A DNA stretch of 36,695 bases from a virus: IMG/VR virus record IMGVR_UViG_3300011115_000698, positions 1-36,695 of that record; one strand, 5' to 3'. Both the position numbers and the translations under genes were made by a program. This document shows positions 5,333-36,695 of the stretch, in pieces. Below the pieces are notes generated by a model. It searched no databases. It saw nothing but the letters and a program-made list of their open reading frames with translations, and was not told the DNA's origin. Each line of letters opens with the position of its first letter. Position 1 is the first letter of the stretch.

Positions 5333-6055
5333 TTAAATACTTTTTTCTAATTCGTTCAAATATTGTCGCGCCTTTCGAACTTTGTCGTAAATTCTATAAA
5401 TAGCCTCGTCGTCTCTTTCTATATAAAACTCAAATACACGGTCGGACATTGGAATATCGTCGTAATTCATAGCTCGGTCAATTTTTTCGCAAGCTTCAAC
5501 ATAATTATCGTCTTCGGTTGTGGCGACATTCATTTTATACATTAACTTCCTTTTTTCGTCCGCGACAAGCGTTTCAGGCGTGTTTACAAGGCAATAACAA
5601 AGGCGTGCACTAGTTGCACCCGTTAGAGCTAAATACCCTTGTAATTGCCACCAATACGCCGAATTAATATCACTCGCGCGGGCTTTGAAAAAAGTAAAAA
5701 TATCCCAGCTACTTTTAATGTCGATAATTTCGGAAGCCGTGTCTATTGATTCGCCAACAAATAAATCAGGCGTACCGCTTAAAAATTCATTCCGTACGCG
5801 TTCCTCGTTTTTTTTATAAAAAGTTTTTTTAACCCTTGAAAGCAATGTAATCGAATCCTCTTCAACCATTAAACCCTTTTCCAAATATTTGCTCGTTATG
5901 TCTTGCTCACGGTTGTATTTTTCCGCAACGTAAACGTCGATTAAATACGTTTTTGTAGTTTCGGATAGGTTGCCGGCTTCCTTGTCGGCTTTTAATTTTG
6001 GCTCGGTCATTAATTTTGAAATTGACGAGCAACGAAATAAAGTGTTATTAAACAT
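5333..6055 (-). CDS. PD-(D/E)XK exonuclease (YqaJ/phage recombination type)
   Basis: The 240-aa protein opens FNNTLFRCSSISKLMTEPK, the usual start of phage recombination exonucleases. It then shows the nuclease core: GTPDLF (motif II Asp), EIIDIKSSW (D-x-K of motif III) and YWWQLQGYLALTGA (the QxxxY motif). It probably resects double-stranded ends to give 3' tails for the RecT-like annealing protein encoded two genes upstream. A conserved hairpin element lies in its leader (6085-6101). The leader AAAAACTAAAAAACATG matches other genes of this region. Confidence 0.88.
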   Translation of the reverse strand: MFNNTLFRCSSISKLMTEPKLKADKEAGNLSETTKTYLIDVYVAEKYNREQDITSKYLEKGLMVEEDSITLLSRVKKTFYKKNEERVRNEFLSGTPDLFVGESIDTASEIIDIKSSWDIFTFFKARASDINSAYWWQLQGYLALTGATSARLCYCLVNTPETLVADEKRKLMYKMNVATTEDDNYVEACEKIDRAMNYDDIPMSDRVFEFYIERDDEAIYRIYDKVRKARQYLNELEKSI

Positions 6056-6069
6056 GTTTTTTAGTTTTT

Positions 6070-6106
6070 AAGTTTTAAAAATTTGTGCGTTGCAGCCGCA
6101 CCCCTG
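6070..6106 (-). promoter_or_regulatory. Conserved leader element with hairpin, copy 2 (before exonuclease)
   Basis: On the minus strand the stem GTGCG/CGCAC (6101-6097 with 6089-6085) encloses the 7-base loop GCTGCAA, followed by AAATTTTTAAAACTTA and the exonuclease start. The same layout occurs at 9007-9043. The second stem pair differs between copies as T-A here and C-G there, a compensatory change. The element could be a leader structure controlling translation or a weak attenuator. No known RNA family is recognised. Confidence 0.6.
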
Positions 6107-6112
6107 AATTTA

Positions 6113-6328
6113 TTAATTAAATGCAAATGTTACTTTTGACATTTCATTTATTAAATCTTTTTTGCTATTGGTTATTATCCCAAATTCTTTGTTATTTTTT
6201 ACCGCCCACATTTTTAAAAATGGAAAATTTTGTAATAATTCTAATTGCAAACCTGAATTTTGAATAAAATAATTTGCATTTTCAAATGTCATGTTTTTTG
6301 TAGCTTTTCTAATTTGTGTACTTGTCAT
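6113..6328 (-). CDS. Hypothetical protein, 71 aa
   Basis: MTSTQIRKATKNMTFENANY, then NSGLQLELLQNFPFLKMWAV and a final helix KKDLINEMSKVTFAFN. No domain recognised; no membrane segment. It is preceded by an AAAACTAAACAAC leader directly abutting the ATG and by the promoter-like site at 6368-6398, so it is the first gene after that site and is followed by the exonuclease. Confidence 0.7.
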   Translation of the reverse strand: MTSTQIRKATKNMTFENANYFIQNSGLQLELLQNFPFLKMWAVKNNKEFGIITNSKKDLINEMSKVTFAFN

Positions 6329-8824: not shown

Positions 8825-8995
8825 TTAGTTAATGAATTGAATTAGTTTTTGTTTTAAAATTTCTTTACCTCCCATTTTTTCAATTTTACTTTGCGGAATA
8901 AAAAGCGTTACGGGAAATTTTTTGTCGGCTACCGGTTTACGCCCGCAGCCAGCACGAGCGCCTCCTCGATTTTCTGTTTTTTTTGTTTTTTTCAT
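8825..8995 (-). CDS. Small basic Gly-rich protein, 56 aa
   Basis: ATG at 8995 gives MKKTKKTENRGGARAGCGRK, then KKFPVTLFIPQSKIEKMGG and a helical end. The Lys-rich start followed by GGARAGCGRKP resembles a nucleic-acid-contacting motif seen at the start of small phage and plasmid proteins; the FPVTLFIPQSKIE segment looks like a ribbon-helix-helix strand plus helix (inference). A conserved hairpin leader element lies upstream at 9022-9038. Possibly a small DNA-binding regulator. Confidence 0.65.
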   Translation of the reverse strand: MKKTKKTENRGGARAGCGRKPVADKKFPVTLFIPQSKIEKMGGKEILKQKLIQFIN

Positions 8996-9006
8996 TTGTT
9001 TAATTT

Positions 9007-9043
9007 AAGGTTTAAAAATATGCGCGTTAAAGCCGCGCCCCTT
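9007..9043 (-). promoter_or_regulatory. Conserved leader element with hairpin, copy 1
   Basis: On the minus strand the stem GCGCG/CGCGC (9038-9034 with 9026-9022) encloses loop GCTTTAA. It is followed by ATATTTTTAAACCTTA and then the start of the 56-aa gene. Copy 2 lies at 6070-6106 before the exonuclease. The shared plus-strand frame is TAAGnTTTAAAAAT, TGnGCGTT, AGCCGCnCCCCT. One stem pair has changed on both sides (C-G here, T-A there). Confidence 0.6.
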
Positions 9044-9049
9044 GTTTTG

Positions 9050-9083
9050 TAAATGTAAATATATTTATCAAATATTTATCAAA
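9050..9083 (-). promoter_or_regulatory. Possible promoter with direct TTTGATAAATA repeats
   Basis: The minus strand carries two copies of TTTGATAAATA (around 9083-9073 and 9072-9062) followed by TATATTTA and TACATTTA, both close to the TAnnTTTG -7 element. Spacings of 16 or 22 bases depend on which boxes are paired, so the assignment is uncertain. It would drive the 56-aa gene and the genes after it. Confidence 0.35.
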
Positions 9084-9100
9084 TTTATTTCATTTTATTT

Positions 9101-9214
9101 TTAGCCAAATAAATTTTGGTAAATATAGTCCCCAAAGGTTGCCAGCAAAAGGGAAATTAAAACTATAATTATGGCCGTTTTTTTGCTAAATTCAAAATCG
9201 TCTTTGTGTTGCAT
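9101..9214 (-). CDS. Tiny membrane protein, 37 aa
   Basis: ATG at 9214 gives MQHKDDFEFSKKTAIIIVLI, continuing with a hydrophobic helix to about residue 27 and ending YIYQNLFG. One membrane pass with an acidic N-terminus and two lysines before the helix. It fits the gap between two genes and has the A-rich leader (AAAAAATTTAAAAAAATG-like) seen elsewhere, which supports translation. Function unknown. Confidence 0.55.
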   Translation of the reverse strand: MQHKDDFEFSKKTAIIIVLISLLLATFGDYIYQNLFG

Positions 9215-32017: not shown

Positions 32018-32916
32018 TAGTAGTTATTTATATTTTTAACATTGCCGCCGAAACGAATCCTATTGCCTTGTTTTGGTTGTATTAAAGGAAGCGAAGGCGT
32101 TATTTTACCCTCCGCGCACATTCTAAACCATTCAACCGCAGCCTCGTAACGTTTAACCCTTAGCTCGGGTATATTACGCGGCGCGATACGGCTATGTAAA
32201 TGGAATAACGCCACGTCAATAATCATCATTACCATTTGCGCGTCACGGTTGTCATCGGCTACAAAGAAATTTGAAGGGCTTATTAAGTTGCCAGCGGGTA
32301 CGGAATACGCAACGCCGCCTCCCCAATATTGCAAACCGTTTACCGTGTCGTCAGGAGCTACGTTGTTTTGAGGTAAATTTTGGTAAAACCCGTATTGTAA
32401 AGCGACCTCGTGTGTAATTGTTGCAGTTGCAACGCGGCACGTATAAACTTTGCCTTTCCAATAAACTTTATCGCCTAATCTATAAACATTTGAATATTCA
32501 AAAGCGGGAACGACGCCGCCTGAATAAGTTTGAACGGTATAAATTGAATTTGGCGCCCCTAATAGCGTCCAATATGTTGTGTCCGTAGGGGGGTTATTTG
32601 TATTATAAGCTAATTTACATTGGTAAATTTGGTTATTATATGAAACCAAATCTCCTAAACTATGTGAGGTACCGCCTTGAAACGGGCTACCATTTACAAA
32701 AAACCTTTGATTAGTATAGTAAATTTTAGTAAAAGAATATAGCAGCGTGTCCGTGAACTCTTGCTCTAACAAATATTTTTGCCTTAAATACGATTTCGCT
32801 TCGGCTTCCGCTGATAAGATAGCACGTTCTAAAATTGTAGCGTCATTGCTGATAATTTGTTGAAGGTTTACGTCCTGAATAGTGCGCAGTAAATCCGATT
32901 GTATAATGTAGCTCAT
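32017..32916 (-). CDS. Head-tail connector (gp36/DUF1320-like) with two carbohydrate-binding-like inserts, 299 aa
   Basis: The N-terminal 60 residues (SYIIQSDLLRTIQDVNLQQI, ILSAEAEAKSYLRQKYLLEQ) and the C-terminal part (AQMVMMIIDVALFHLHSRIA, ELRVKRYEAAVEWFRMCAEG) form the all-helical Mu gp36/connector fold. Between them is an insert with two beta motifs of the CBM5/12 type: LGDLVSYNNQIYQCKLAYNT then PPTDTTYWTLL at about 87-120, and YRLGDKVYWKGKVYTCRVAT from about 145. Connector proteins are normally about 130-190 aa. The start overlaps the TerL stop by one base. Confidence 0.75.
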   Translation of the reverse strand: MSYIIQSDLLRTIQDVNLQQIISNDATILERAILSAEAEAKSYLRQKYLLEQEFTDTLLYSFTKIYYTNQRFFVNGSPFQGGTSHSLGDLVSYNNQIYQCKLAYNTNNPPTDTTYWTLLGAPNSIYTVQTYSGGVVPAFEYSNVYRLGDKVYWKGKVYTCRVATATITHEVALQYGFYQNLPQNNVAPDDTVNGLQYWGGGVAYSVPAGNLISPSNFFVADDNRDAQMVMMIIDVALFHLHSRIAPRNIPELRVKRYEAAVEWFRMCAEGKITPSLPLIQPKQGNRIRFGGNVKNINNY

Positions 32917-34279
32917 TAATAAGTATTTTTTGACGGTTTATTCTTACCAAAGTTAATCATAATTCCATTACCTCCGCGTTGAAACGCCTCGAAGTCGCTT
33001 GCAAAAGCCGAAACCATAAGATAATCAAATAAATCGGTAAAGTGACCAACCTTTTGAAACCTTACTTTTGTTTTGTTGTCGGTTTGCATTTCTTTTAATT
33101 TTGTACCGTCCGCAGCCTCTTTTAATTGAACGAAGTCGTTAATCATTCTTTTGCAGTTTTCGCCTATTGTAATGCGCACCCCGTTTAATTCCTTTTCAAA
33201 TACGGTGTTAATCCAATTGCCCCGCATTACGACCGACGGGTTTGACCGCATTACGCGCGATGTGGGTTTGTAGGCTTTTAATTCGTCCAATATAAGGCGG
33301 TAAAAATTGTACCCCTTTTCAAGTTTGGTGTCTTCCTTGTTGGCGGTTGCGTCCCCGTAAATAAATAAGCCTGAATTATGCGCGGGGTATTTTCTTTTAA
33401 ATTCATTGCACACGGCTTTGATAGTATTATTCGGGTTTTCGCCCGCTATTTCGTCTATCATAAAAATTTGTTTGCCTTGTATTTGAAAAATGCCTACCGG
33501 CAAATAAGGGTTGACGTTATCGTCCCAACTTATATGAATCGGCAAAGCGGGATTGTAACGCGTGTTGCCTATATGCTTATCCAGCTCAAAGCACTTGTAA
33601 AATTCGCCGCCTTGTTTAAGTTGCATGTCCCAATTTCCTTTTACAAATACCTCGTATTGAAAACGCGGCATATTGAGTAAATTTTGTTTATACTCTTCCG
33701 TGAGGTATTGGTTGTCGGTAATTTTTGAAGGTATGTAAAGCCAATTAGGGGCTAATTCGCCGTTATTCCATTTGTCGTAAACCCTTTTTTTTACCCAATT
33801 ATTTGTCGGGTTGCACGTTGCTAATATTATCGGCTTAGGACGGGGCTCGCATTCCCAGCGACCAGCACGGCCAAAGGCAACGTCGAGCGTTTCCTCGCTG
33901 CATTCGTTAATCTCTTCAAATAAAAACCCATTTACCTCCAGCCCTTTTAACCATTGCAAGTCCTTGTCTTTGTCGTAGTTTTCGCCCTTAAACATTATAA
34001 CCGATCCGTTCGGGTGTGTATATTCGTAAGGCGATGTCTTCAATACCCCCGAAGCGTTAAACTTTCGAAACGACGGTATAGTAGTTATACGTATTTTTTC
34101 TAAATCTTCACGTATTACGCACCAACGCGATTTTGGGAATATTTGGCACATTATTAATAATGCGGAAAGACCCCAAAAAGTTTTGCCCCCCCCATTGCAC
34201 CTCCAAAAAGTATAAAAGAATACTTTTCTGAACTCACCGCCTCCATTGCTTCCGCTTGTTTATCTGTAAAAATTATCAT
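32916..34279 (-). pseudogene. terL: Terminase large subunit, frameshifted at a G run in the Walker A motif
   Basis: From ATG 34279 (MIIFTDKQAEAMEAVSSEKY) the 0 frame runs into SFILFGGAMGGAKLFGVF and stops early. One extra G in the minus-strand G run (plus-strand C run 34186-34193) restores GGAMGGGKTFWGLSALLI and joins the following frame, giving 454 aa. Walker B is FLFEEINE. The nuclease domain has HISWDDN, YGDATAN and FTDLFDYL with the expected acidic residues. It packages DNA into the head. The most likely explanation is a one-base error or deletion in the homopolymer; in a live phage it should be intact, or rescued by -1 slippage on G GGG GGG. The start overlaps the HNH stop (ATGA). Confidence 0.88.
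34186..34193 (-). other. Homopolymer run (8 G on minus strand) at the terL frameshift
   Basis: Eight C on the plus strand. Nine would keep the terminase frame open through the P-loop (GGG-GGK). Homopolymers are common places for sequencing errors and for real slippage, so this site should be checked in raw reads. Confidence 0.85.
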
Positions 34280-34767
34280 AATGTAAATATTTTTCTTCTA
34301 AAAATTGACCTATCGCATTTATATTCTTTTGCTATTTTTCTTTTTGATTCCCCATTTTGTAACCTTTTTTTCATTTCTAAACATAAAATTTCACTATATT
34401 TTGTATTATTATGTTCGTCACCTGATAAAATAGTTATCATATTATTTTTATAAGCGTGAATTATATTCTCTTTATTTGTGCACCATTCTAAATTTACAAC
34501 CCTATTATCGTTTTTTATTCCGTTTATATGGTTTACTTGCGGTTTGTTTTCTAAATTTAAAATAAAGGCTTTTGCAATTTCTCTATGCAATTTAATTGTT
34601 TTTGTTTTTCCGTTTTTTGTTAAAGCCGTTCTCAAATACCCCTTTGCATCAAATGCGGGTTTTAAATTTTTAATATTATTAGAATTTTTATAATTTAAAC
34701 TTCTAATTAAACCCGTATCCGATACCTCGTAAAGACCTTCATAATTTACAATTGGTTTCCAATTCAT
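34276..34767 (-). CDS. HNH homing-type endonuclease with NUMOD4 domain
   Basis: Residues 1-45 are a NUMOD4 module (WKPIVNYEGLYEVSDTGLIR, SLNYKN). The HNH core reads LHREIAKAFILNLENKPQVN, HINGIKNDNRVVNLEWCTNK with the H-N-H pattern. The C-terminus (SGDEHNNTKYSEILCLEMKK, IAKEYKCDRSIFRRKI) is a helix-turn-helix type DNA-contact part. It sits between the DUF5681 and terminase large genes, splitting the packaging pair, and overlaps terL by four bases (ATGA). Free-standing HNH genes in this position are mobile intruders or helpers of packaging cleavage. Confidence 0.85.
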   Translation of the reverse strand: MNWKPIVNYEGLYEVSDTGLIRSLNYKNSNNIKNLKPAFDAKGYLRTALTKNGKTKTIKLHREIAKAFILNLENKPQVNHINGIKNDNRVVNLEWCTNKENIIHAYKNNMITILSGDEHNNTKYSEILCLEMKKRLQNGESKRKIAKEYKCDRSIFRRKIFTL

Positions 34768-36447: not shown

Positions 36448-36695
36448 TTATATGGTTGTCGGTTTTTCCGACATACCACTTCCCTTACCTCCATAAGTTT
36501 CAGCAAAGTAATCTTCTGCTTTTTCTTTATGAGTTTTATGTAAAAGTTTGTTTTTGCAACCATTACAATAAGCATCTATTATCTGTTGCTCAAATATTTT
36601 GTTGGCTTGTTCTACCAATTCATTAATTCTTTTTTCTTGAAGACTATTTTTAGATATTGCTAAGATTCTTTTATTAGTGTAATTTGGTCTGTCAA
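36448..36695 (-). CDS. Small accessory protein, C-terminal part (junction gene)
   Basis: This is the continuation of the frame beginning at 133; because of the 90-base terminal repeat, residues before the right end are the same as those encoded by 1-90. The C-terminal part has ANKIFEQQIIDAYCNGCKNK, KTHKEKAEDYFAETY and ends SEKPTTI. The two cysteines (C-N-G-C) could bind a metal. The AETYGGKGSG segment is repeated in the protein at 327-824. Confidence 0.85.
   Translation of the reverse strand, partial: DRPNYTNKRILAISKNSLQEKRINELVEQANKIFEQQIIDAYCNGCKNKLLHKTHKEKAEDYFAETYGGKGSGMSEKPTTI
36477..36516 (-). repeat. Diverged direct repeat with 581-620
   Basis: Partner of the 40-base repeat at 581-620, in the same orientation, encoding the DYFAETYGGKGSG segment of the junction gene. 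Confidence 0.8.
36606..36695. repeat. Direct terminal repeat, right copy (90 bp)
   Basis: Exact copy of bases 1-90. Read together with the left copy it restores the frame of the gene that crosses the ends, as expected for a circular molecule opened at an arbitrary place. Confidence 0.95.

Follow-up and report, generated by a model that had tools for sequence, protein, structure and literature searches.

A candidate cis-acting H-type RNA pseudoknot as a portable module of phage mRNAs

The window, by which we mean the whole 36,695-nucleotide stretch of viral DNA that was analyzed, carries two copies of a small element that, judging from its sequence in many phages, probably acts in cis as an H-type RNA pseudoknot and as a portable module of phage mRNAs, a reading in which we place moderate confidence. 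To our knowledge, few structured RNAs are common to unrelated phage families, and this one brings together strong covariation, invariant bases, and a defined position relative to stop codons.

The first-pass annotation of the window had described two leaders that share about 37 bases, and the matching stretches lie where it placed them: a repeat finder matches positions 6067-6117 to 9004-9054 with 78% identity. The window holds exactly two occurrences of the core, GGGGYGYGGCTNNAACGCRC, at 6085-6104 and 9022-9041 of the minus strand, even when up to three mismatches are permitted. The expectation from shuffled sequences is a mean of 0.05 occurrences, and none of 100 shuffles reaches two. The stems that had been reported (GCGCG/CGCGC in one copy and GTGCG/CGCAC in the other) and their loops (GCTTTAA and GCTGCAA) are likewise correct, and the hairpin formed by this stem, S2, is the predicted minimum-energy fold in each copy (-9.5 and -8 kcal/mol). 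The pattern had been written for the plus strand, but the element belongs to the minus strand, which is the coding strand for the 56-aa and exonuclease genes that flank the copies. Two copies do exist, as had been claimed, but they are members of a large family rather than the result of a local duplication; a covariance model trained on 54 sequences, all from other phages, matches the window at these two sites only (E-values of 6e-5 and 0.004). The word leader fits insofar as the element precedes both genes, but copy 2, which has the ATG of the exonuclease gene 29 nt downstream, also begins exactly 6 nt past a stop codon, that of the 71-aa gene (Table 1).

Table 1. Features of the two pseudoknot copies and their neighboring genes in the window.
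Feature	Positions	Strand	Sequence, partner or context	Basis
Copy 1 pseudoknot core	9022-9043	minus	AAGGGGCGCGGCTTTAACGCGC (5'-3', minus strand); ATG of 56-aa gene 26 nt on	
Copy 1 S1, 5' strand	9041-9043	minus	AAG; partner CUU 9030-9032	sequence and S1 covariation
Copy 1 S1, 3' strand	9030-9032	minus	CUU, within hairpin loop	sequence and S1 covariation
Copy 1 S2, 5' strand	9034-9038	minus	GCGCG; partner CGCGC 9022-9026	covariation and fold prediction
Copy 1 S2, 3' strand	9022-9026	minus	CGCGC	fold prediction
56-aa gene	8825-8995	minus	small basic GGxRxGxGRK protein; downstream of copy 1	ORF list
Copy 2 pseudoknot core	6085-6106	minus	CAGGGGTGCGGCTGCAACGCAC (5'-3')	
Copy 2 S1, 5' strand	6104-6106	minus	CAG; partner CUG 6093-6095	sequence and S1 covariation
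Copy 2 S2, 5' strand	6097-6101	minus	GUGCG; partner CGCAC 6085-6089	covariation and fold prediction
71-aa gene	6113-6328	minus	immediately upstream of copy 2	ORF list
Exonuclease gene	5333-6055	minus	downstream of copy 2	269 related IMG/VR stretches

A TAnnTTTG motif, which is a motif of Bacteroidota promoters, is found upstream of copy 1 within positions 9043-9110 (minus strand), and no gene of at least 45 codons ends close upstream of this copy. Together, these two features suggest that copy 1 may lie near a transcription start. Elsewhere in the window, positions 1-90 are identical to positions 36606-36695, and these identical ends indicate that the record probably represents an entire phage genome that closes into a circle. 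From the translations alone, the terminase large subunit looks split into an N-terminal piece (34154-34279) and a main ORF (32916-34151, minus strand), and the ORF that precedes it (34276-34767, minus strand) resembles an HNH-type homing endonuclease.

The element, 22-31 bases in length, consists of a stem S1 (NAG/CUN) of 3-6 bp, a GG loop, stem S2 (GYGCG/CGCRC), a single base, and a last loop that ends in AA. The 7-base hairpin loop holds the CUN, which is complementary to the NAG directly 5' of GGG, and pairing between the two produces an H-type pseudoknot. Thus, the plain hairpin of the first-pass annotation is half of a pseudoknot, while the accompanying proposal that an RNA structure is kept through paired changes has held up well. 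The outer S1 pair, which had been left free in the first search, is formed in 113 of 116 instances (shuffle mean of 88.6, with 0 of 20,000 shuffles as high) and occurs as C-G, A-U, G-C, U-G, and G-U. A fourth S1 pair, for which both columns were unconstrained in the search pattern, is formed in 77 of the 83 long-loop instances, compared to a shuffle mean of 32.9 and maximum of 49, and is represented by CG (28), GC (21), UA (16), AU (6), and GU (6). Across 54 distinct sequences, 98.8% of cells are paired and the covariation is 0.271, which compares with 0.091 for shuffles and 0.005-0.062 for slid registers. Two-sided changes are seen in three pairs of S1 and one pair of S2, as expected of an H-type pseudoknot; pair 2 of S2 is either U-A or C-G. 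The CGG/CCG form of S1 in Fishburne, DLane, Arbiter, and PSonyx, which is the corynebacterial and mycobacterial form of the element, represents a double change of the middle pair from A-U to G-C. Maintenance of an RNA structure through compensating changes is therefore strongly supported. Because S1 covariation accounts for the hairpin loop, both a pairing of that loop with the 3' tail and mimicry of an anticodon stem-loop were dropped.

Two subtypes of the element can be distinguished, one with three S1 pairs and a last loop of 3 nt and one with at least four S1 pairs and a longer loop, and invariant bases are found in the loops and in S2. A scan for S2 variants with a changed middle pair found pairing in 2 of 64, compared to 1.3 expected, with none above chance; hence S2 appears to be fixed in sequence as well as in shape. 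Other L1 dinucleotides or stem sequences were not above background in 2.0 Mb of sequence, much of which had been retrieved with the same pattern.

Early scans of IMG/VR for the exact pattern found a few copies, which stood beside unrelated genes. The core pattern AGGGGNGCGNCTNNAACGCNC is present in at least 119 IMG/VR stretches, and the pattern in which a longer last loop is permitted is present in at least 120. After a pairing filter, which removed three matches whose stems failed to pair (L120, L128, and L191), the set drawn from IMG/VR contigs and named phages comprises at least 235 instances, or at least 155 after collapsing similar flanks, flank similarity being the only basis on which redundancy was removed. 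A BLAST search of 50,697 phage records with the consensus found the element in a microvirus, which is a single-stranded-DNA phage of 5.8 kb, in three crAss-like phages, in Microbacterium phage Pumpernickel, in Corynebacterium phages BFK20, phi673, phi674, and PSonyx, and in well over 100 mycobacteriophage records, with nearly all matches outside annotated genes. The carriers thus include unrelated phages of Bacteroidota and actinobacteria. Each genome carries one to four copies, and a control pattern read backward found none. None of 395 Bacteroidota genomes contains the pattern, and BLAST found no copy of the element in 72,556 plasmids; the element is restricted to phages. Several matches were set aside: nine matches to a strict tail pattern in genome contigs had non-pairing stems or unrelated contexts and were judged to be chance, as was a match in Brevundimonas phage Strzyga that is without GGGG, and an early match before a tRNA (L085) has a different stem.

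The genes downstream of the element encode RecT, exonuclease, DNA polymerase, helicase, SSB, transcription regulators, and many proteins of unknown function, and the upstream genes are likewise diverse. When loci are compared in pairs, 343 pairs have the downstream gene alone in common and 110 have the upstream gene alone in common. Fishburne and DLane have the same upstream gene end and different downstream genes; the reverse is seen, for example, in L083 and L084, which have the element and the downstream gene in common and different upstream genes. Among 80 loci that carry relatives of the exonuclease gene, none has the element in the leader, so it is not a feature of exonuclease leaders as such. 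Taken with the differing downstream genes of Fishburne and DLane, this shows that the element is a portable module that is not tied to gene identity. The first-pass annotation had proposed that homologous leaders lacking the pairing would speak against an RNA structure; in the leaders of these exonuclease relatives the element is missing altogether, a result that bears on portability and is not proof of an unstructured RNA. The nearest of these relatives (68% identity) has a different hairpin, GGGGGC/GCCCCC, at the same place before the start codon (L003:7950-8001). No relatives of the 56-aa protein were found by tblastn.

The element has a preferred position behind stop codons. Among 108 short-loop instances, 48 start exactly 6 nt past the upstream stop and 77 start 5-8 nt past it. 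When the distance to the first S1 base is measured for 150 instances of the non-redundant set, 84 instances lie 5-10 nt behind the stop and 4 lie at 0-4 nt; the stop is inside the element in 5 (7 such stops are present in the full set), and 38, including copy 1 of the window, are more than 18 nt away. In four loci (L138, L165, L180, and L213), the upstream frame appears to end at a UAA inside the last loop of the pseudoknot rather than 6 nt ahead of it. The distance to the next start codon is spread broadly, from 2 to 127 nt. For IMG/VR contigs, the neighboring genes are stop-free runs rather than predicted genes. Each of the 19 genuine copies in annotated phages is flanked by features of one orientation, two coding sequences in 15 cases and a coding sequence and a tRNA gene in 4. 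The latter belong to the three crAss-like phages and Pumpernickel (L099, L224, L225, and L226), in which the pseudoknot is placed 3-5 nt before the tRNA gene. In BFK20, the stretch from the upstream stop to the pseudoknot holds a long, terminator-like hairpin that is nearly perfect (L347:1136-1200).

The lower limit of 5-6 nt after the stop codon agrees with how far a terminating ribosome extends downstream, which suggests that the RNA is placed to stay folded during translation of the upstream gene; an ability to fold under these conditions would be required of it. Recognition would be by both sequence and shape, through machinery that is common to the hosts. S2 is conserved among phages whose hosts belong to different bacterial phyla, and also in a microvirus of only 5.8 kb, which points to a conserved host partner rather than a phage protein; given the microvirus copy, a phage-encoded partner is unlikely. 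As the leading mechanism, we suggest that the nascent RNA may contact the elongating RNA polymerase and alter pausing or termination across the gap between genes. This proposal, made by analogy with the HK022 put and lambda nut RNAs, is a tentative one. Like those RNAs, the element is phage-specific, present in few copies, and without a tie to gene identity, and the placement of the copies is compatible with antitermination of the put/nut type. Such contact would fit the placement, the phage restriction, the portability, and the copies that precede untranslated tRNAs. As counterpoints, the copies track the downstream gene more than the upstream one, which would suit a leader of the next gene equally well, the 38 of 150 instances noted above lie more than 18 nt from a stop, and in 5 the stop is inside the element.

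Close behind polymerase contact, and also tentative, is an effect on the ribosome at the gap, where the element might insulate the genes or set reinitiation, or might recruit the 30S subunit to the next start codon or exclude it from there. With a spacing of 5-8 nt, the fold would stand where mRNA enters a ribosome whose A site holds the stop codon; in some phages whose genes bear a Shine-Dalgarno sequence, the element abuts this sequence directly (L125, L136, L202, L206, and L216), and the L083/L084 pair keeps the element with its downstream gene despite different upstream genes. However, the copies before tRNA genes have no start codon to act upon, the distance to the next ATG is broad, and the sequence is conserved more tightly than a roadblock requires. 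Ranked after both of these, and somewhat doubtful, is a role in mRNA stability, in which the pseudoknot would block 3'-to-5' exonucleases and protect the upstream coding region as far as its stop, or would mark a processing point. The close placement behind stops agrees with this, as does a terminator-like hairpin that follows the element in one locus (L205). So do the copies before tRNAs, since cleavage by RNase P would leave such a copy at the 3' end of the mRNA. A barrier to exonucleases, however, needs no invariant S2 sequence, a genome carries a mere one to four copies, and many copies stand 30-60 nt from the stop and closer to the next gene.

Three further explanations carry much less weight with us. 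An operator for a phage-encoded RNA-binding protein, with either gp32 and its gene 32 pseudoknot or a small basic protein as the model, has a precedent in T-even phages (PMC3014915) and would suit the SSB-like and RecT-like genes among the neighbors. We nevertheless consider it unlikely, since the neighboring genes are mutually unrelated and the element is present in the 5.8-kb microvirus. The binder suggested in the first-pass annotation, the small basic protein whose gene follows copy 1, fares no better: its GGxRxGAGRK motif is no commoner in element-bearing loci (7 of 223) than in control loci (5 of 80), and it is in no frame of the element-carrying microvirus. A small-molecule riboswitch with a compact pseudoknot aptamer is very improbable. 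The invariant loop and S2 bases and the small size would be in keeping with one, the preQ1-I riboswitch being likewise small, but the neighboring genes have no pathway in common, copies lie behind stop codons and before tRNAs, and the element is covered by no Rfam riboswitch family. Least probable of all is programmed stop-codon readthrough or frameshifting into the next gene under stimulation by the pseudoknot. The spacing of about 6 nt does resemble that of known readthrough and frameshift signals, but the frame of the downstream gene with respect to the stop takes all three values (22, 32, and 34 instances), frame-0 extensions are short, tandem stops are common, and four copies precede tRNAs. 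With neither a consistent frame nor a path free of intervening stops, a recoding signal was rejected.

Contact with RNA polymerase thus remains our leading, if tentative, proposal. More generally, it is plausible, though short of probable in our estimation, that one sequence-conserved pseudoknot acts on a universal host machine without a phage protein and has spread across unrelated virus groups, namely tailed dsDNA phages of Bacteroidota and Actinobacteria, crAss-like phages, and ssDNA microviruses. Should the element steer RNA polymerase or ribosomes with no protein involved, it would rank as a portable control element of very small size, and if it is read by a host machine, it would represent a new class among viral cis-acting RNAs. 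Hundreds of intergenic regions in phages could also be annotated with it. Since copies are carried by phages that can be cultured on Mycobacterium smegmatis and Corynebacterium glutamicum, its function is directly testable.

Comparison with known systems yields no direct counterpart. No Rfam 15 family is found in the window at the gathering threshold, E-value scans of Rfam with both copies and nine other loci give no relevant match, and we did not find a published description of the element in the open-access literature, although it may be described elsewhere. The Bacteroidetes FopS sRNA family (RF04319, PMC11697453) matches the region of copy 1 only, leaving copy 2 unmatched, and does so on the strand opposite to the covarying pseudoknot. 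This match scores 29 bits (plus strand, 8985-9051), below the gathering score of 56; members of BTncRNA_FopS have a single-stranded seed and a terminator hairpin and score at least 56 bits. It lies antisense to a region where translation starts and probably reflects an A/U-rich region of the kind with which FopS RNAs pair. The viral frameshift and readthrough pseudoknots of BWYV and MuLV are compact H-type folds with a spacer of 5-8 nt from the A site and an A-rich loop. The present element is like them in all three features, but it has no common downstream frame, and four of its copies precede tRNAs. With HK022 put and lambda nut it shares phage specificity, a low copy number, a location in early operons, independence of neighboring genes, and the need to stay free of ribosomes; nutR, too, lies closely behind a stop codon, that of cro. 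However, nut combines a linear boxA with a hairpin and is read by protein N, and put comprises two larger hairpins, so neither is a 22-31-nt pseudoknot of this sequence. The gene 32 pseudoknot of T4, T2, and RB69 serves a single gene from a position 67 nt upstream, where gp32, the product of that gene, binds it, and it is limited to certain T-even phages; a 2010 review regarded it as possibly the sole viral pseudoknot that autoregulates translation (PMC3014915). Like it, the present element is an H-type pseudoknot of small size that is found in phage mRNA and close to a replication gene. Unlike it, the element stands beside many unrelated genes rather than upstream of a gp32/SSB gene, often lies right behind a stop codon, and has a conserved sequence of its own. 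The T-even gene 32 pseudoknot is thus the nearest phage precedent, from which the present element differs in position and in its link to a gene.
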